Positions 4,105-17,960 of a DNA stretch of 19,552 nt are shown here, one piece after another. The notes under the pieces are model-generated. The model ran no database searches and was not told where the DNA came from. It saw nothing but the letters and a program-made list of their open reading frames with translations. The translations under genes were made by a program, and so were the position numbers. Where the stretch lies: assembly GCA_017379255.1 (NCBI GenBank), contig JAFNWZ010000015.1, forward strand, positions 1 to 19,552. Direction: 5' to 3'. This stretch comes from Akkermansia sp. (GTDB taxonomy: Bacteria; Verrucomicrobiota; Verrucomicrobiia; Verrucomicrobiales; Akkermansiaceae). Numbering within the stretch: the first letter of the stretch is position 1; the number at the start of each line of letters is the position of its first letter.

Positions 4105-5913
4105 ATGGCAACGGACATCAAATTCAAGCGCAATTTCTCCATCATTGCCCACATTGACCACGGTAAGACAACCCTGTCTGACCGTCTTCTGGAATTCACC
4201 AACACCATTGGCGAACGCGACAAGCAGGACCAGCTGCTCGATGCCATGGACCTGGAGCGTGAGAAGGGGATTACCATCAAGTCCCACCCTGTTACCATGC
4301 GCTACAAGGCCAAGGATGGTAACACCTACGAGCTTAATCTCCTGGATACCCCCGGCCACGTGGACTTCTCCTACGAGGTGAGCCGTTCCCTCGCCGCTTG
4401 CGATGGCGCCGTGCTCATTGTGGATGCCGCCCAGGGCGTGGAAGCCCAGACCCTGGCCAATATGCACCTGGCCGTGGAGCAGAATCTCGAAATTGTGCCT
4501 GTGGTCAACAAGATTGACCTGCCCAGCACCAATCTGCCCCAGGTATACCGCCAGCTGGAGGAAATTGTCTGCATTCCCAAGGAAGAGGCTATTCTCTGCT
4601 CGGCCAAAGCCGGTATCGGCATTGAAGATGTGCTGGAAGCCATTGTGACCCGCGTGCCTGCCCCCAAGGTGATGGAGGACGATAACCACCTGCGCGCCCT
4701 CGTGTTCGACTCTGTGTACGATGCCTACCGCGGCGTGGTGTCCTATGTGCGTCTGGTCAGCGGACGTGTTGCCCGCGGCATGAAGGTCAAGCTTTTCGCT
4801 ACAGATGAAACCTACGAAGTGAAGGAAGTCGGTATCTTCACGCCCAAGATGCAGGCTACGGATGAGCTGCACACGGGTGATGTGGGCTACATCATCGCCA
4901 ACATGAAGAGCGCTGCCGATGTGAAGATCGGTGATACCTACACCAACCTGGCCGACCCGTGCAGCGAGCCGCTGCCCGGCTTCAAGGAAATCCGCCCCAT
5001 GGTGTTCTCCGGCATCTACCCGGTGGATTCCGGTGATTACGAAGCGCTGAAGGCGGCCATGGCCAAGCTGCAGATTAACGATGCGGCCTTCACCTACATG
5101 GGTGAAAGTTCCGTGGCGCTGGGCTTCGGTTTCCGCTGTGGCTTCCTGGGTCTGCTGCACATGGAAATCATCCAGGAACGCCTGCGCCGCGAGTTCAACA
5201 TGGACGTGATTTCCACTTACCCCTCCGTGATTTACGAAGTGCGCAAGACGGACGGTGAGGAAATCAACGTTGATAACCCGAGCATTCTGCCGGAGCCGCA
5301 GGAGATTGATGAAATCCGCGAACCCATCGTCAAGGTGTTCATCATGATTCCCAGCGAATACATTGGCGCTATCATGAGCATCGTCATGGAAAAACGCGGC
5401 GAGCTGACTCATACCGAGACCATTGATGATACCCGCGTGATGCTCACCTGCCGCATCCCGATGGCTGAAATCCTGGTGGACTTCAACGACAAACTCAAGA
5501 GCGCTACCCGCGGCTACGGTTCCATGGACTACGAGTACGACGGCTACCAGGCTGCCAAGCTCGTGAAGATGGACATGATGATTGCCGGCGAGCCGGTGGA
5601 TGCCTTCTCCATGATTGTGCACCGCGACCGCGCGGAATCCGTGGGCCGTGAGCTGGCAACCAAGCTTAAGGATGTAATCCCCCGCCAGCTCTTCACCGTG
5701 GCCATTCAGGCCTGCATCGGCGGTAAGATTATTGCCCGCGAAAGCATTTCCCCCATGCGCAAGAACGTGACGGCCAAGTGTTACGGCGGTGACGTGACCC
5801 GTAAGCGCAAGCTGCTCGAAAAGCAGAAGGAAGGTAAGAAGCGCATGAAAGCCATCGGTAAGGTGAGCATTCCGCAGGAAGCCTTCATCAATGTGCTGAA
5901 GAGCGGCGACTAA
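4105..5913 (+). CDS. lepA: Elongation factor 4 (LepA), ribosome-associated GTPase
   Basis: This 602-residue protein is the translational GTPase LepA/EF4, which binds ribosomes and has been linked to back-translocation and to 30S assembly. The G-domain motifs are intact: G1 AHIDHGKT (15-22), effector-loop GITIK (55-59), G3 DTPGH (81-85) and G4 NKID (135-138). They are followed by domain II, EF-G-like domains III and V, and the LepA-specific C-terminal domain (ending KRMKAIGKVSIPQEAFINVLKSGD, with the diagnostic GGDVTRKRKLLEKQKEGKKRMK stretch split around it). Length matches the family (about 600). The start at 4105 fits homologues, and no Shine-Dalgarno site precedes it (GCGCGCGC). A small membrane-protein gene begins one base after the stop, so the two are likely co-transcribed. 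Confidence 0.98.
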   Translation: MATDIKFKRNFSIIAHIDHGKTTLSDRLLEFTNTIGERDKQDQLLDAMDLEREKGITIKSHPVTMRYKAKDGNTYELNLLDTPGHVDFSYEVSRSLAACDGAVLIVDAAQGVEAQTLANMHLAVEQNLEIVPVVNKIDLPSTNLPQVYRQLEEIVCIPKEEAILCSAKAGIGIEDVLEAIVTRVPAPKVMEDDNHLRALVFDSVYDAYRGVVSYVRLVSGRVARGMKVKLFATDETYEVKEVGIFTPKMQATDELHTGDVGYIIANMKSAADVKIGDTYTNLADPCSEPLPGFKEIRPMVFSGIYPVDSGDYEALKAAMAKLQINDAAFTYMGESSVALGFGFRCGFLGLLHMEIIQERLRREFNMDVISTYPSVIYEVRKTDGEEINVDNPSILPEPQEIDEIREPIVKVFIMIPSEYIGAIMSIVMEKRGELTHTETIDDTRVMLTCRIPMAEILVDFNDKLKSATRGYGSMDYEYDGYQAAKLVKMDMMIAGEPVDAFSMIVHRDRAESVGRELATKLKDVIPRQLFTVAIQACIGGKIIARESISPMRKNVTAKCYGGDVTRKRKLLEKQKEGKKRMKAIGKVSIPQEAFINVLKSGD

Positions 5914-5914
5914 G

Positions 5915-6334
5915 ATGCGAAGGCTCTTTTTTTCGGCCCTGGCTCTGCTGTATGCGGCTCTCGGCAGCTACTATGTGCTGGAATCGGCTCTGGAATATCC
6001 GGATACGCTTCTCGCTTTAGTGGTGCTGGCCTGGGCACCGGCTCTGGTGGTTCTCCTTCTGGTCTGCCCCTGGCTGGGCGGTAAGAAATGGGTGGATTCA
6101 TTGCCCGTTGCAAACTGGGTTACGCTGGTGCCTTGCCTGGCTACCATGGCTTTCTTTTTCATGTTGATGAGCGACGGGGCATCGCCGTCTTTCTGCCGGA
6201 GCGATGCTGAGGAAGTGATACTTGGAGCGGGGCTGTTCGTAGCCCCTCTGGCAGCCATGTTGGTTGCTGCCACCTATGTCTTCAGTCTGGGGATGGCGGT
6301 TCTGTTCCGCTGGGAAAAAAAGAACCGCAGTTAA
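5915..6334 (+). CDS. Small polytopic membrane protein of unknown function
   Basis: A 139-residue protein with about four hydrophobic segments (near residues 4-22, 32-54, 66-84 and 102-132) and a basic C-terminus (RWEKKNRS). I do not recognise the family. It starts one base after the lepA stop, so it is translated from the lepA transcript, probably by coupling. Its own stop codon lies in the loop of the shared terminator at 6323-6345, so the gene ends exactly where transcription should stop. The segment around residue 55 (WLGGKKWVDSLPVANW) is the main soluble loop. Confidence 0.78.
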   Translation: MRRLFFSALALLYAALGSYYVLESALEYPDTLLALVVLAWAPALVVLLLVCPWLGGKKWVDSLPVANWVTLVPCLATMAFFFMLMSDGASPSFCRSDAEEVILGAGLFVAPLAAMLVAATYVFSLGMAVLFRWEKKNRS

Positions 6335-8699: not shown

Positions 8700-8773
<74 letters not shown>

Positions 8774-12836: not shown

Positions 12837-13628
12837 ATGGCAGATATTCATCCTACAGCTATTGTTGACCCGACCTGTGAGATTGCAGATGACGTCAAAA
12901 TCGGGCCGTATTGTGTGGTGGGGCCGCATGTGCAGCTGGGTTCCGGCTGCGTGCTGCATAGTCATGTGGTGATTGGCGGTCCTTCCAAGTTCGGCAAGAA
13001 TAACGAGTTTTTCCCCTTCTGCACCATTGGTACCAAGACTCAGGATCTCAAGTACTCCGGTGAACCGACCACGCTGGAAGTGGGCGATGGTAACGTATTC
13101 CGCGAATACTGCAATATCAACCGCTCCACCACGCCGGAGCTGCGCACGGTGATTGGCTCGTACAATAACTTCCTGATTCATTCCCACTGCGGGCATGAAT
13201 GCATCGTGGGTGATCACAACATCTTCTCCGGTTACGCCGCCGCTGCCGGCCATTGCGAAATCGGTAACTGGGTGATTGTATCCGGCTGCGCGGCGCTGCA
13301 CCAGTTTGTGCGCGTGGGTGACCACGCCATGGTGGGCGGCATGGCCAAGGCCACGCAGGACATCGCTCCGTATATGATTGCCGAGGGCTCTCCCGCTAAT
13401 CTGCGTGCCATCAACCAGGTGGGCCTTTCCCGCCGTGGTTTCTCGGATGAGGATATACGCGCGCTGCGTTTCGCCTACCGTAAGCTCTTCCTTTACAAGG
13501 ATAACAAGGGCGACAAGATGGAGGATAAATTTGCTGAAGTCCTTGGGGATGAGAAGTACGGCAGCAATCCGCACATCAAGTACCTTGTGGACTTCCTGCG
13601 CGCCTCCCAGCGCGGTTTTGCCCGCTGA
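12837..13628 (+). CDS. lpxA: UDP-N-acetylglucosamine acyltransferase, first step of lipid A synthesis
   Basis: A 263-residue LpxA, close to the 262 of E. coli. It transfers a 3-hydroxyacyl chain from acyl carrier protein to UDP-GlcNAc. The N-terminal two-thirds is a left-handed beta-helix of hexapeptide repeats (IHPTAIV, CEIADDVKIGPYCVVG). The catalytic histidine is H120 in HSHCGHECIVG, and the TKTQDLKYSGEPT and GMAKATQDIAPYMIAEGSPA blocks are diagnostic. A helical C-terminal domain follows. The start at 12837 (MADIHPTAIV) matches homologues. The stop overlaps the next ATG (TGATG at 13626-13630), so gph is translationally coupled. The gene shows that the organism makes lipid A. Confidence 0.97.
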   Translation: MADIHPTAIVDPTCEIADDVKIGPYCVVGPHVQLGSGCVLHSHVVIGGPSKFGKNNEFFPFCTIGTKTQDLKYSGEPTTLEVGDGNVFREYCNINRSTTPELRTVIGSYNNFLIHSHCGHECIVGDHNIFSGYAAAAGHCEIGNWVIVSGCAALHQFVRVGDHAMVGGMAKATQDIAPYMIAEGSPANLRAINQVGLSRRGFSDEDIRALRFAYRKLFLYKDNKGDKMEDKFAEVLGDEKYGSNPHIKYLVDFLRASQRGFAR

Positions 13629-14293
13629 TGAAACCTTACCTTGTCTTTGACCTGGACGGTACACTGGTTGATTCCCTGCCCGGAATAGCGGCGGGAATCA
13701 ACCGTGCTTTATCTGCCTGTGGGTATCCCATCCACCCGCAGGAAAAAGTCCGCGCGATGATAGGCCGCGGGGCTGCGAATCTCTGCGCGCAGGCTATTGG
13801 CTACGCCGGATCGGCAGAGGCTCCGCCAGAGCAGCTGGAGGCGGTGCATGCTGCCTTCCGCCGGGAATACCCCCACTGCTGGTGCGGGGAGGAGTATACC
13901 CGCGCCTATGATGGAATTACCGCTCTGCTGGAAAAACTGGCTGCTGCCGGGGTGAAGCTGGCGGTGCTTTCCAACAAACCGCACGAGGTCACAGAGCCTA
14001 TGGTGCGGCATCTGTTCCCGTCTGTGCCCTTCGATGTGGTGCTGGGTTATACCCCGGCGTTCCCCCGCAAGCCGAATCCGGCTTCCATGCATCACATTGC
14101 GGAGAAATGGGGCGTTTCTCCTGCGGAAATTACACTGGTGGGGGATTCCCTGTTCGATGCCCGCTGCGCGGAAAATGCCGGTACCGGCCTGGTGCTGGTG
14201 GGCTGGGGCTATGCGGCAGATCCCGCCGCGCTGCGCGCGTGGCCTGCCCCGGTGTGTGAAACCATGGAGGACCTGGCGGCTCAGTTGTTATGA
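13628..14293 (+). CDS. gph: HAD hydrolase, phosphoglycolate phosphatase-like
   Basis: A 221-residue HAD-family phosphatase of the Gph/beta-phosphoglucomutase type. Motif I is FDLDGTLVDS (nucleophile D8, D10), a small helical cap follows, motif II is AVLSNKP, the lysine motif is PRKPNP and motif IV is LVGDSLFDARCAENAG. Phosphoglycolate is the likely substrate by resemblance, but specificity is not provable from sequence. Its ATG overlaps the lpxA stop, and its own stop overlaps the next start (ATGA at 14290-14293), so three genes form a coupled unit. The part from codon 138 on (14041-14293) is present again at 15375 as the tail of a chimeric gene, at about 94% nucleotide identity. The full-length copy here keeps all catalytic residues. 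Confidence 0.8.
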   Translation: MKPYLVFDLDGTLVDSLPGIAAGINRALSACGYPIHPQEKVRAMIGRGAANLCAQAIGYAGSAEAPPEQLEAVHAAFRREYPHCWCGEEYTRAYDGITALLEKLAAAGVKLAVLSNKPHEVTEPMVRHLFPSVPFDVVLGYTPAFPRKPNPASMHHIAEKWGVSPAEITLVGDSLFDARCAENAGTGLVLVGWGYAADPAALRAWPAPVCETMEDLAAQLL

Positions 14294-15219
14294 GGATAGT
14301 GGTGGCTGCATTTCTGGCATTCTGGGTGCTTCTGATGTCCGGTTGCACCGGGGCTCTGCTGGTGCACTACCTGGAGGAAAAATCAGAACCGCCATACGTT
14401 CCGGTATCGGCAGATGTCGTAAATCCTGCTTACGAAGGCTGCCGGGTGCAGCTTAAAGCCAGGGCGTATACGGATGAGTGGCTGGAGTTGCGGGATATCG
14501 GCGTGCGCTGCCAGGCTTTGCGGCTGAGCATAGAGACCGAAACCGGGGCGTGGAACGCCGCGCGCCGCAGCTGGGATTACGATGATTACCGGGGTGCGCC
14601 CCTACGCTCAGGAACGGCCTTTGCCCAGCGCGTGCGCATGGGGGCTTTTGAGTTGCGTTTCTCTGATGATGACTTGGAGTATGGGGCGCTTCCGACTAAA
14701 TTACCTGTGGAGCTTGTGAACTTGCCGGAAAGCTGGCGTCCCCATGCCCGTGAAGTAGCGGGTGATGACTGGGAATTGAAGATGGAGCTGGTGGGTAATC
14801 CTTCCCGCACCATTACCTGTACCATGGTGGAGAATGGCCGTGAACTGGTCGTGCGCGGTGTGCAGCGGGGGAACAGGATTTTTCCTGTACACGGCATTGA
14901 AGAAAGTGAACACGACTGGCAGATGTATGACCGGAGGAGAGATGAGTTCCTGCTGGAGAAAACGCTGTTTCCTGCGCTTGTGTCGCTGGCAGTGCCAGCG
15001 CTGCTGCTGGGGATTTTCCGTGTGTTGAAGTGGCGGCCGGGGCAGAAGAAAGATAAACTGGCGATTGGGCTGATGCTGGCGCTGGATGCGGCGGCTTTCC
15101 TTGTGTTCGGCGGTTGGGCGTATCCTGCCTGTGCCTGTGCCTGTGGTGTTGTGCTGCTGTTCTCGTTCTGCTGGATTGTGAGGGTAATCCGTCGTTTTGG
15201 CGTTGACGCTGAAACTTGA
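14290..15219 (+). CDS. TMEM43-like membrane protein, copy A
   Basis: A 309-residue membrane protein. It has an N-terminal hydrophobic segment (about 4-26, containing a possible but atypical lipobox LMSGC), a large beta-rich middle domain and three C-terminal membrane segments (about 228-248, 256-276 and 281-300) before a basic IVRVIRRFGVDAET tail. The middle domain starts PVSADVVNPAYEGCRVQL and carries RCQALRLSIETET. This resembles the TMEM43 (LUMA-like) family, where a DPANEG motif is followed by a similar NALKL segment; here DPANEG has become NPAYEG. The match is by motif only. The start overlaps the gph stop (ATGA). A diverged, frameshifted copy lies at 15615-16534. Confidence 0.68.
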   Translation: MRIVVAAFLAFWVLLMSGCTGALLVHYLEEKSEPPYVPVSADVVNPAYEGCRVQLKARAYTDEWLELRDIGVRCQALRLSIETETGAWNAARRSWDYDDYRGAPLRSGTAFAQRVRMGAFELRFSDDDLEYGALPTKLPVELVNLPESWRPHAREVAGDDWELKMELVGNPSRTITCTMVENGRELVVRGVQRGNRIFPVHGIEESEHDWQMYDRRRDEFLLEKTLFPALVSLAVPALLLGIFRVLKWRPGQKKDKLAIGLMLALDAAAFLVFGGWAYPACACACGVVLLFSFCWIVRVIRRFGVDAET

Positions 15220-15231
15220 TGAGTGTATGAT
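15203..15231 (+). promoter_or_regulatory. Near-consensus promoter for the chimeric gene, leaderless
   Basis: TTGACG (15203-15208; 5 of 6), 17 bases, TATGAT (15226-15231; 5 of 6), then six bases and the ATG at 15238. The start of transcription is predicted at the A of the ATG. The whole element lies in an 80-bp block identical to 16490-16569. Confidence 0.68.
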
Positions 15232-15237
15232 GGTTCT

Positions 15238-15633
15238 ATGAAAATCCAGGATAAGGATATTCCTTCCATGTTCCAGCGCAAGGCGTGCTGGGCAGTGCTT
15301 ACCGGCCTGGCTTTGCTGGTAGTGGTAGCGCTGGTGTGTGGCTTCTTGTTTGGAGTGGGCAGCCTTTTTGTGGCGCTGGGTTATACCCCGGCGGTCTCCC
15401 GCAAGCCGGATCCGGCTTCCATGTATCACATTGCGGAGAAATGGGGCGTTTCCCCGGCAGAAATCACGCTGGTGGGGGATTCCCTGTTCGATGCCCGCTG
15501 TGCGGAGAATGCCGGCACCGGCCTGGTGCTGGTGGGCTGGGGCTATGCGGCAGACCCCGCCGCGCTGCGCGCGTGGCCTGCCCCGGTGTGTGAAACCATG
15601 GAGGAACTGACCGGATGCTTATTGACAGACTAG
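15238..15633 (+). CDS. Chimeric gene: AI-2E permease N-terminus fused to Gph C-terminus
   Basis: This 131-residue frame is a fusion made by the tandem duplication. Residues 1-47 match the N-terminus of the AI-2E permease encoded at 16553 (MKIQDKD, FQRK, one membrane segment ending GVGSLFVAL). From the junction GTGGCGCTGG-GTTATACCCC at 15370-15389 onward it matches Gph from codon 138 (GYTPA, RKP.PASM.HIAEKWGVSPAE, LVGDSLFDARCAENAG). It lacks the Gph nucleophile and cap, so phosphatase activity is not expected. The frame has stayed open through substitutions at about 6-13% of sites, and it keeps a good promoter. It may be a harmless relic or an expressed membrane-anchored HAD fragment. A GTG at 15223 is also in frame but lies in the promoter. 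Confidence 0.7.
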   Translation: MKIQDKDIPSMFQRKACWAVLTGLALLVVVALVCGFLFGVGSLFVALGYTPAVSRKPDPASMYHIAEKWGVSPAEITLVGDSLFDARCAENAGTGLVLVGWGYAADPAALRAWPAPVCETMEELTGCLLTD

Positions 15634-16534
15634 CCGGGGTGATGGTGCGTTGTGCGCTGGTGGCGCTGTGTCTGGCCCTGATTGCGGTGCTTTTGGGCAG
15701 AGTGCGGTCGGGTTGCTGGAGCAGCGGAATGAGGAACCCTATCTGGTCATTGAGCCGGATGCGGTTGACCCTGCAAATGAGGGGCGCCGAGTGCAGCTGG
15801 CGGCCCCCGCGTATACGGATGAGTACCTGGAGTTGCGCGCGCTCGGCTTGCGCTGCCAGGCTCTGCGGGTAGAGATGAATGTCTATACCCCGGACAGGGA
15901 AAAGGAATATCTCGGGCTGCCGTTGCGGCAGACTGTGGATGTGGCTTCCCATGTGCGCATGGGGGCGTTCCGCCTGAAATTGAGTGCCAATGCCTTGGGC
16001 TCTGGTGTTCATTTTGTGAAAATCCCCTTCAGTTCGCTGAATTTGCCTGAAGTATGGCTGGATGCCTGCCGGGATACTAGTGAGGGTGAGCGGGAATTGC
16101 AACTGGAGCTGTCGGGCGGTCCGGAAATCTGTTGCCGCATGATAGAGAATGGCCGGCAGCTTGTCGTTCGCGGTGTGCAGCGCGGGGATACTATTGAGCA
16201 GGTTCGTGCCATCTATGATGATGCTCTCTTTTTTCATCACAGAGATAAAGTAGCGGCTGATGAAGCATGGAAGTCGGCAGCACTGGCTTTTCTGGTTTCC
16301 TGGATGATTCCTGCTTTGGTGCTGGGCGTATTCCGGCTGGTCCGGTGGAGCAAAGCCGGTGCCCATGCCGGATTGGCGGTTTTGACGATGCTGGCGCTGG
16401 ATGCCGCTGCTTTCCTGTGCTGCGGGGGGTGGGTGTATGGTGTCTGGGGGTTCGCCGCCGCGGGCATTCTGGTGGTTTGCTGCTGGCATATTGTGAGGGT
16501 AATCCGTCGTTTTGGCGTTGACGCTGAAACTTGA
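15615..16534 (+). pseudogene. TMEM43-like membrane protein, copy B, frameshifted
   Basis: The frame from ATG 15615 gives a good N-terminal membrane segment (MVRCALVALCLALIAVLLG) and then turns to poor sequence. The family domain continues in another frame: NEEPYLVIEPDAVDPANEG, RCQALRVEMNVYTPD, MIENGRQLVVRGVQRGD and three C-terminal membrane segments ending IVRVIRRFGVDAET. One base is missing near 15691-15697 (TTTTGGG); a fourth G restores one frame of 306 residues, matching the 309 of copy A. This copy keeps the canonical DPANEG motif and so looks less derived than copy A. It could be inactive, switched on by slippage in the TTTTGGG run, or intact with a sequencing error. Its start overlaps the end of the chimeric gene by 19 bases. 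Confidence 0.65.
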
Positions 16535-16546
16535 TGAGTGTATGAT
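16518..16546 (+). promoter_or_regulatory. Near-consensus promoter for the AI-2E permease, leaderless
   Basis: TTGACG (16518-16523), 17 bases, TATGAT (16541-16546), six bases, ATG 16553. It is identical to the promoter at 15203-15231. The -35 lies in the last codons of the TMEM43-like copy B. Confidence 0.68.
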
Positions 16547-16552
16547 GGTTCT

Positions 16553-17800
16553 ATGAAAATCCAGGATAAAGACGTTCCTTCCTTGTTCCAGCGCAAGGTG
16601 TGCTGGGCGGCGCTTACCGGGCTGGCTCTGCTGGTTGTGGTGGCGCTGGTTTGTGGCTTGTTGTTCGGCGTGGGCAGTCTTTTTGTGGCGCTGGAGCCCG
16701 TGCTGCTGCCGGTGGTGATTGCCGGATTCCTGGCCTATCTCCTTTCTCCCTGTGTGGCGCTGGTGCAGCGGCGCATCACGAAGCGTCTGTGGGCGGTGGT
16801 ATCGGTCATGCTGCTGGCGGGGGCGGTTCTGGTGGCGCTGGGGTGGACGATTGTGCCGCCGCTGGTGCAGCAGACGGGGGATCTGGTTTCCAAGCGTGAG
16901 CAGATTCTGGAAAGTGTGGTAGAGGGCGGTAAGACCCAGATGGCTGAAAACCGCCTGTTGCAGCAGGGGGTGGATATGCTTTACAGTAAGACTCTTAAGG
17001 ATGCGCGTGCGGCTGAATTGCCGGTGGAGGATTATGAGAATCTTTCTCAGGAAACAACTTATGAAGGGAAGTTGAAGGCGATTCTCAGCTTCAATTCGTC
17101 CTACCTCACAGAGACGCTCATGGCGTGGCTGACGGCGGGTTCCCGGGCGCTGTCCGGGGTCACGATGGCTCTGGTCGGCACGGTGATGGTGCCGGTATTC
17201 CTCTTTTATTTCCTGCTGGAAAGTACCAGTATTGCGCAGAACTGGCACACGGTGCTGCCCATCCGCCGCTCCGCTTTCCGGGAGGAAGTGGTGGCCACGC
17301 TTCAGGAAATCAATAACTACATCATCTCCTTTGTGCGTGGGCAGATGCTCGTGAGCGTGATAGATGGTGTGATTCTGGCTGTGGCATTGAAAATCATGGG
17401 TTTGCCCTATGCCATCACCATTGCTGCCGCCGCTGCCCTGCTGGGGATTATCCCCTACCTTGGCATGATTGGTACCTGGATTCCGGCGGTGGTTATTGCC
17501 TGGTTCACCTGGCATGATGTGAGCCATGTGCTCATCGTGAGTGCCATATTCGGTTGTGTGAGCCAGTTTGATGGCTGGGTGCTTCAGCCGCGCATTGTGG
17601 GCAGCCGGGTGAAGATGCATGACCTCACGGTGATGTTCTCTGTGCTGTTCTGGAGCTTTGTCATCGGCGGCGTGGTCGGCGCCCTGCTGGCGGTGCCGCT
17701 CACGGCTTCCATCAAGGTTTTGTTTACGCGCTACATCTGGTCCTCCTACCGCAAGGAAACGGAAGGAAGTACGAAGTGCGAGGTGCGAGGTACGAAGTGA
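16553..17800 (+). CDS. AI-2E family transporter (permease)
   Basis: A 415-residue member of the AI-2E/PerM/YdiK family of inner-membrane proteins, with two N-terminal membrane segments (about 19-42 and 47-67), a third near 75-98, a soluble middle region, and four to five further segments. Family features include PVVIAGFLAYLLSPCV, the EINNYIISFVRGQMLVSVIDG region, the LLGIIPYLGMIGTWIPAV loop and the C-terminal QPRIVGSRVKMHDLTVMFSVL. Members have been linked to autoinducer-2 export or sodium-proton exchange; the substrate here is unknown. ATG 16553 sits six bases after a -10, so it is preferred over the in-frame GTG 16538. The last residues (STKCEVRGTK) are encoded by one arm of an intergenic repeat, so the original C-terminus has probably been altered. 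Confidence 0.88.
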   Translation: MKIQDKDVPSLFQRKVCWAALTGLALLVVVALVCGLLFGVGSLFVALEPVLLPVVIAGFLAYLLSPCVALVQRRITKRLWAVVSVMLLAGAVLVALGWTIVPPLVQQTGDLVSKREQILESVVEGGKTQMAENRLLQQGVDMLYSKTLKDARAAELPVEDYENLSQETTYEGKLKAILSFNSSYLTETLMAWLTAGSRALSGVTMALVGTVMVPVFLFYFLLESTSIAQNWHTVLPIRRSAFREEVVATLQEINNYIISFVRGQMLVSVIDGVILAVALKIMGLPYAITIAAAAALLGIIPYLGMIGTWIPAVVIAWFTWHDVSHVLIVSAIFGCVSQFDGWVLQPRIVGSRVKMHDLTVMFSVLFWSFVIGGVVGALLAVPLTASIKVLFTRYIWSSYRKETEGSTKCEVRGTK

Positions 17801-17960
17801 GGAATTCCCTGCGCATGCGCGCAGAAGCCTGGATTAGAAAGCGTGGCTTACTGCCCGGCTTTTGAAAGCCGGAAGATGCAGGTTTGCTTGCATCTCACTC
17901 CGCAGGCGGAGCCTGCCTGACTGCATACTTCGTACCTCCCACTTCGTACCTCGTACTTCC
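17764..17960. repeat. Compound inverted-repeat element with GTACGAAGT-type arms
   Basis: Arms of 35 bp at 17764-17798 and 17926-17960 pair as an imperfect inverted repeat (about 30 of 35 positions). Each is built from short units such as GTACGAAGT and GAGGTACGA. The 127-bp middle contains several perfect hairpins: CTGCGC/GCGCAG (17809-17824), CCGGCTTT/AAAGCCGG (17855-17872), GATGCA/TGCATC (17875-17894) and CTCCGC/GCGGAG (17898-17911). The left arm encodes the last residues and stop of the AI-2E gene. It resembles the dispersed repeats that translate as KYEVR in many genomes. No transposase is present. Confidence 0.65.

Follow-up and report, generated by a model that had tools for sequence, protein, structure and literature searches.

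A tandem array in an Akkermansia draft genome that probably unites two divergent alleles of a TMEM43-like gene

The window analysed here (the whole stretch of DNA, 19,552 nt) is one entire contig (C95) of a 457-contig, 2.5-Mb draft genome (G000; 90% complete, 3.97% contamination), for which the nearest named relatives found were Akkermansia MAGs from ruminant guts. It holds a gph gene and a gene for an AI-2E family permease, between which two head-to-tail units were found, each comprising the 3' part of gph, a gene for a divergent TMEM43-like membrane protein (the T gene; T1 in unit 1, T2 in unit 2) and the 5' part of the permease gene (Table 1). An earlier note, written from the letters of the sequence, had described these two units with their lengths and gene content as well as the survival of complete outer genes on both flanks, and our coordinates confirm both descriptions. 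The gph product matched Pfam HAD_2 (1e-31) and NCBIfam PGP_bact (4.4e-41), the latter under the curated cut-off of PGP_bact, and gph, T1 and the right-hand permease gene are all open and of full length. The C-terminus of the permease reads into one arm of a dispersed inverted repeat of the GAAGTACGAAGTGCGAGG type (17765-17960), and similar 31-34-nt pieces are found on six further contigs of the draft. A tRNA on the minus strand (8700-8773, 64.9 bits) is the sole Rfam match at gathering score in the window.

Table 1. Features of the array and of its two flanking genes, in window coordinates.
Feature	Position	Strand	Description
Full-length gph	13628..14293	+	221 aa; phosphoglycolate-phosphatase-like HAD hydrolase; left parent of the junction
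Unit 1	14035-15368	+	1334 bp; gph 3' part, T1, AI-2E permease 5' part
Microhomology site 1	14035..14045	+	TGTGGTGCTGG inside gph; start of unit 1
T1	14290..15219	+	gene for a divergent TMEM43-like membrane protein, 309 aa, intact; single in L018
80-nt exact repeat	15175-15254 = 16490-16569	+	spans T 3' end, spacer and permease start; common to both haplotypes
Chimeric ORF	15238..15633	+	ATG at 15238, stop at 15633; 131 aa, in frame
Unit 2	15369-16683	+	1315 bp; gph 3' part, T2, AI-2E permease 5' part; head to tail with unit 1
Junction (site 2)	15369..15379	+	TGTGGCGCTGG; T1-type permease 5' part to gph 3' part; start of unit 2
T2	15615..16534	+	the other TMEM43-like allele; reading frame interrupted within the signal-peptide part, continuing downstream as 15686-16534
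T2-haplotype 3' piece	16490..16683	+	T2 3' end, spacer, permease 5' part; 99.5% to L019, 92.3% to L018
Full-length AI-2E family permease gene	16553..17800	+	415 aa; right parent of the junction; Pfam AI-2E_transport 2.2e-50
Microhomology site 3	16684..16694	+	TGTGGCGCTGG inside the full-length permease gene

Scans of the T1 and T2 products against Pfam and NCBIfam returned no match at E <=0.001, and the TMEM43 profile PF07787 matched none of 28 T-family members at E <=1 and nothing in G000. Profile-profile comparison (hhalign) of the T family against nine PF07787 proteins from the same taxonomic order gave a probability of 98 (E 3e-13 over 189 columns), while the control, one unrelated alignment, gave a probability of 1 (E 0.057). 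TMEM43 proteins have a single helix at the N-terminus, a middle rich in beta structure and three helices at the C-terminus, and an AlphaFold2 model of T1 (mean pLDDT 82.4, pTM 0.68) shows such a layout; T1 has 309 aa, compared with 381-401 aa in the nine aligned PF07787 proteins. The hhalign match upholds the label TMEM43-like, already used in the earlier note, as that of a distant relation. In the genus, T was detected in 12 of 76 genomes at E <=0.001, the window's own counted, with G012 and G035 carrying partial matches and G034 a weak one with internal stops. Two genes about 12 kb upstream (486-2561), which we take to encode a small membrane protein and a flotillin-like protein, share the strand of the TMEM43-like genes.

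Of the 1303 ungapped columns in a global alignment of the two units, 870 match (66.8%), with 43 gap columns besides, and the identity is distributed as a mosaic, a feature that the earlier note had not mentioned. The gph 3' parts agree at 94% over 241 nt, the DNA of T1 and T2 agrees mostly at 28-77% per 60-nt window with about 45% of residues in common, and the permease parts are about 87% identical after the exact 80-nt stretch, within which the single-T loci L018 and L019 differ by 1 base. Such a pattern is not what a single duplication with evenly spread divergence would leave.

The 11-bp motif TGTGG(T/C)GCTGG (TGTGGNGCTGG) was found at 14035, 15369 and 16684 and its GCTGG part at 14041, 15375 and 16690, all as previously listed. 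GCTGG alone is uninformative, because the window contains 97 copies of it. Comparison of the gph and permease genes of the window showed that 30 of 813,440 register pairs reach at least 10/11 bases, and therefore the claim of an 11-bp near-identity between the two genes at the junction stands. Measured against TGTGGCGCTGG, the gph genes of the window and of L018 each match at 10/11 bases and that of L019 at 9/11. The order of the units, their direct orientation and a downstream-to-upstream junction at microhomology are as expected for a plain tandem duplication of one gph-T-permease segment in one genome with subsequent divergence of T; the earlier note had read the array as a tandem duplication.

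Comparison with fetched loci of related genomes revealed the order gph, T, permease with one T, which the earlier note had named as the unduplicated state, in L018, L019, L022, L023, L024 and L026, and tblastn found no second gph 3' match in these six or in L021. The two T genes of the array have their counterparts in different loci: L018 (RGIG7361) reads gph-T1-permease, its T1 being 97.1% identical in amino acids, and L019 (RGIG7740) reads gph-T2-permease with an intact T2 at 94.0% (both by tblastn over the fetched loci). At the nucleotide level, T1 is 98.4% identical to L018 over 14290-15174 and T2 is 95.2% identical to L019, with 96.8% amino-acid identity between T2 and the protein P0070, while identity to either L018 or L019 is 89.7-95.8% for lpxA, for the pieces of gph as far as 14293 and for the remaining permease gene. 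The first permease 5' copy is 95.4% identical to L018 and 92.3% to L019, the second 99.5% to L019 and 92.3% to L018, so that the permease 5' piece travels with the T allele; the right-hand permease gene is L019-like up to about 16,730 and beyond this a mosaic that favours neither locus clearly. In unit 2, the gph 3' part (93.4% to L018, 91.1% to L019) is assignable to neither haplotype, which counts against a clean donor assignment. Its dS to the window gph is 0.158, compared with 0.266 between the window gph and L018 and 0.244 between the window gph and L019, a low value that fits a donor from the same population, later gene conversion or a partly local origin.

Among the other fetched loci, L020, L025 and L027 start inside the locus, and L028-L041, which were left out of the trees, gave permease matches with no T found and gph only in L029, where it is reversed; several of these, such as L037 and L038, hold little upstream DNA. 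In L021, the T gene between gph and permease has been gutted to an ORF of about 80 aa (about 5743-5985, by eye) that retains the signal-peptide part, the DIGVRCQAL motif and the C-terminal part. The spacing between permease and secA is about 1.9 kb in L023 and L024 and about 0.15 kb in L022 and L026.

In a protein tree of 26 T rows, for which 17 of 42 proteins were used, T1 was placed with L018_T and P0045 and T2 with L019_T and P0070, both sets being starred. Forcing T1 and T2 together as sisters was 448 log-likelihood units worse (p-AU 3.6e-151), and their being each other's closest relatives was thereby ruled out; they represent separate clades older than the array. The plain duplication would thus be tenable only if later conversion had replaced the duplicate with T2, and it is further at odds with permease 5' copies that follow different haplotypes and with sister gph and permease pieces about 90-96% identical to those of the window, when T1 and T2 share so much less. 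We consider it highly improbable, and the duplication of a single unit gives way to two separate alleles, each of them single in a sister lineage.

Both alleles occur singly in sister lineages, an 11-bp near-match lies at the junction, and the same fusion is present in another protein cluster. Our preferred reading, to which we assign a probability of roughly 0.7, is that the array is a heteroallelic tandem, in which two divergent T alleles that elsewhere occur singly at one locus have come to lie side by side. DNA of the T2 haplotype would have recombined with the T1 haplotype, where we infer both donor and direction. At one end, an out-of-register crossover at TGTGGNGCTGG would have joined the T1-type permease gene near codon 44 to the T2-haplotype gph near codon 136, and at the other end ordinary homology would have joined DNA within or beyond the permease gene. 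The resulting permease-gph stub and T2 would afterwards have begun to decay, with gph, T1 and the right-hand permease gene staying open. Counting against this reading are the unassigned gph 3' part of unit 2, the match of only 9/11 bases in the gph of L019 (the T2 representative), the mosaic permease gene beyond about 16,730 and the finding of such a junction in G000 alone among the 76 genus genomes searched. A ComEC domain was found in 74 and DprA in 70 of the 76 genus genomes, neither of them in G000 (90% complete), and their presence would allow DNA uptake in the genus, short of demonstrating it. What looks like duplication with divergence may thus really be the union of two alleles, which alters how such tandems are dated and read.

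The chimeric ORF at the junction consists of permease codons 1 to about 44-47, followed by gph codons from about 136. Its gph part shows 5 amino-acid versus 3 silent changes, as against 1:14 between the window gph and L018 (Fisher p 0.0086), where the count for the chimera branch is a hand-made three-point sum that includes one junction codon of permease origin; with this codon removed, the ratio is 4:3 versus 1:14 between the intact gph copies (Fisher p 0.021). These few changes, most of which are absent from the related protein P0001 described below, suggest that the stub is an unconstrained frame that happens to be still open. T2 is 10 nt shorter than the T2 of L019 in the signal-peptide part, which breaks its frame and had gone unmentioned before. 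This frame break and the excess of amino-acid changes in the gph part of the chimera indicate that both T2 and the chimera are probably decaying. The earlier view that nothing was lost is too strong given the broken T2 frame, and the gain of a chimera holds as far as an in-frame ORF is concerned, but its gph part carries that excess of amino-acid changes.

A protein search with the chimera as query returned 44 proteins. P0001, likewise of 131 aa, matched the chimera over its whole length at 93% identity and has the same junction, as read in the cluster representative; its listing, from which the membership is taken, gives 14 member sequences and 1 contig, with a longest contig of 39,883 bp. 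That a protein with this junction represents a cluster of 14 listed members on another contig speaks against a single error of assembly. Recurrence of permease-gph joining is hinted at by two other in-frame junctions, both seen solely on contigs of <=2,218 bp: in P0002 and P0003 the switch falls near permease residue 90 and near 'AAAGA' of gph, and in P0027, P0030 and P0036 it falls near permease residue 70, with gph taking over at 'LVGDSLFD' (P0036 reads 'LVEDSLFD'). P0088 and P0090, likewise from short contigs, fuse other genes to the same two partners: the gph 3' part is joined to what is presumably the start of V-type ATPase subunit I, and the permease start presumably to another membrane protein. 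Because of such odd fusions in short contigs, the two further junctions are weaker evidence than P0001. In-frame protein queries were used, and therefore out-of-frame permease-gph junctions would be missed. Within the genus, gph was matched at 1e-40 in 73 of the 76 genomes searched, and G000 alone showed an extra gph 3' copy fused to the start of a permease gene. P0040, a full-length gph, may itself be a mosaic: judged by eye, its first two thirds look distant in type, and its end is the same as in P0003/P0037.

These data also bear on the possibility that an assembler joined contigs of co-resident T1 and T2 strains. The window being a whole contig of a 457-contig draft with 3.97% contamination, and the odd fusions P0088 and P0090 in short metagenome contigs, would be compatible with such an artefact. 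Against it, the junction recurs in P0001, with 14 listed members and a 39.9-kb contig longer than that of the window, none of the 17-mers covering the 11-bp junction site has a second copy within the window, and the stub carries substitutions of its own. We regard an assembly chimera as distinctly improbable.

The main rival to the union of two alleles is an ancestral T1-T2 tandem, from which L018 and L019 would each have collapsed to one unit by direct-repeat recombination, the permease 5' repeats retaining T1 and the gph 3' repeats retaining T2. The direct repeats that this requires are present (241 nt at 94% and 80 nt exact), the occurrence of the same junction in another protein cluster implies that the array is not brand new, and T2 and the chimera have had time for change. 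However, the seven fetched loci in which gph precedes the permease gene in the same orientation contain either one T (six loci) or the gutted T of L021, and L029, with its reversed gph, gave no T match. Moreover, the gph 3' copies are too alike (dS 0.158) for a deep array, unless gene conversion has homogenised them. An ancestral tandem is therefore unlikely in our view.

Comparison of L022 and L023 at the DNA level gave 91.6% identity for gph, 94.2% for the permease gene and 53.2% for T (the T alignment contained a row for L019 read one frame off, and L019 T values in it are void; those given above come from other comparisons). The T tree places L022 with the window and L018, an arrangement that the combined gph and permease DNA rejects (p-AU 2.8e-37). 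The T gene has thus switched type between L022 and L023, gph and permease staying similar, which is in favour of the union of two alleles. It is conceivable, though less likely than not, that the locus serves ruminant-gut Akkermansia as a natural site of allele switching, passing from T1 through T1+T2 to T2 via collapse of the array. An incoming T would be added beside the resident one through the gph/permease microhomology, and the array would later collapse by its left (gph) or right (permease) direct repeats. If so, the three different junctions found among permease-gph stubs would be footprints left by such intermediates. As a recurrent intermediate, the array would represent a wild instance of allele switching caught half-way, and would point to T as a protein pressed to change type while its neighbours remain constant.

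The proposed union has parallels in three known systems. In homology-facilitated illegitimate recombination (HFIR), homology elsewhere anchors the incoming DNA. PMC6382021 (citing de Vries and Wackernagel 2002) describes, for transformable bacteria, microhomology segments of 3 to 10 bp and RecA dependence, and the joint of the array would likewise have been made through a few bases of microhomology. Here, however, the out-of-register joint would have placed an additional allele next to the resident one, and in a lineage from the wild. A second parallel is provided by the merodiploids of Streptococcus pneumoniae, in which, as described in PMC3784515, unequal recombination during transformation generates tandem copies that may differ in allele and meet at a hybrid joint. 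The same account puts their size at about 100-900 kb, the main case being bordered by IS861 repeats, and notes a single 3,276-bp duplication that lacks flanking repeats. The array shares the tandem copies differing in allele and the hybrid joint, but is built of units of 1.3 kb joined at an 11-bp near-match inside two genes. A parallel in layout is offered by orphan cdiA-CT/cdiI modules, which, according to PMC3150448, adjoin the resident CDI module and may keep a conserved fragment upstream of the variable part; in both cases, an extra variable-gene module lies beside the resident one. Unlike CDI, T encodes a TMEM43-like membrane protein without a known toxin or immunity partner in the Pfam and NCBIfam scans, and the fragment carried along in the array comes from the neighbouring gene.
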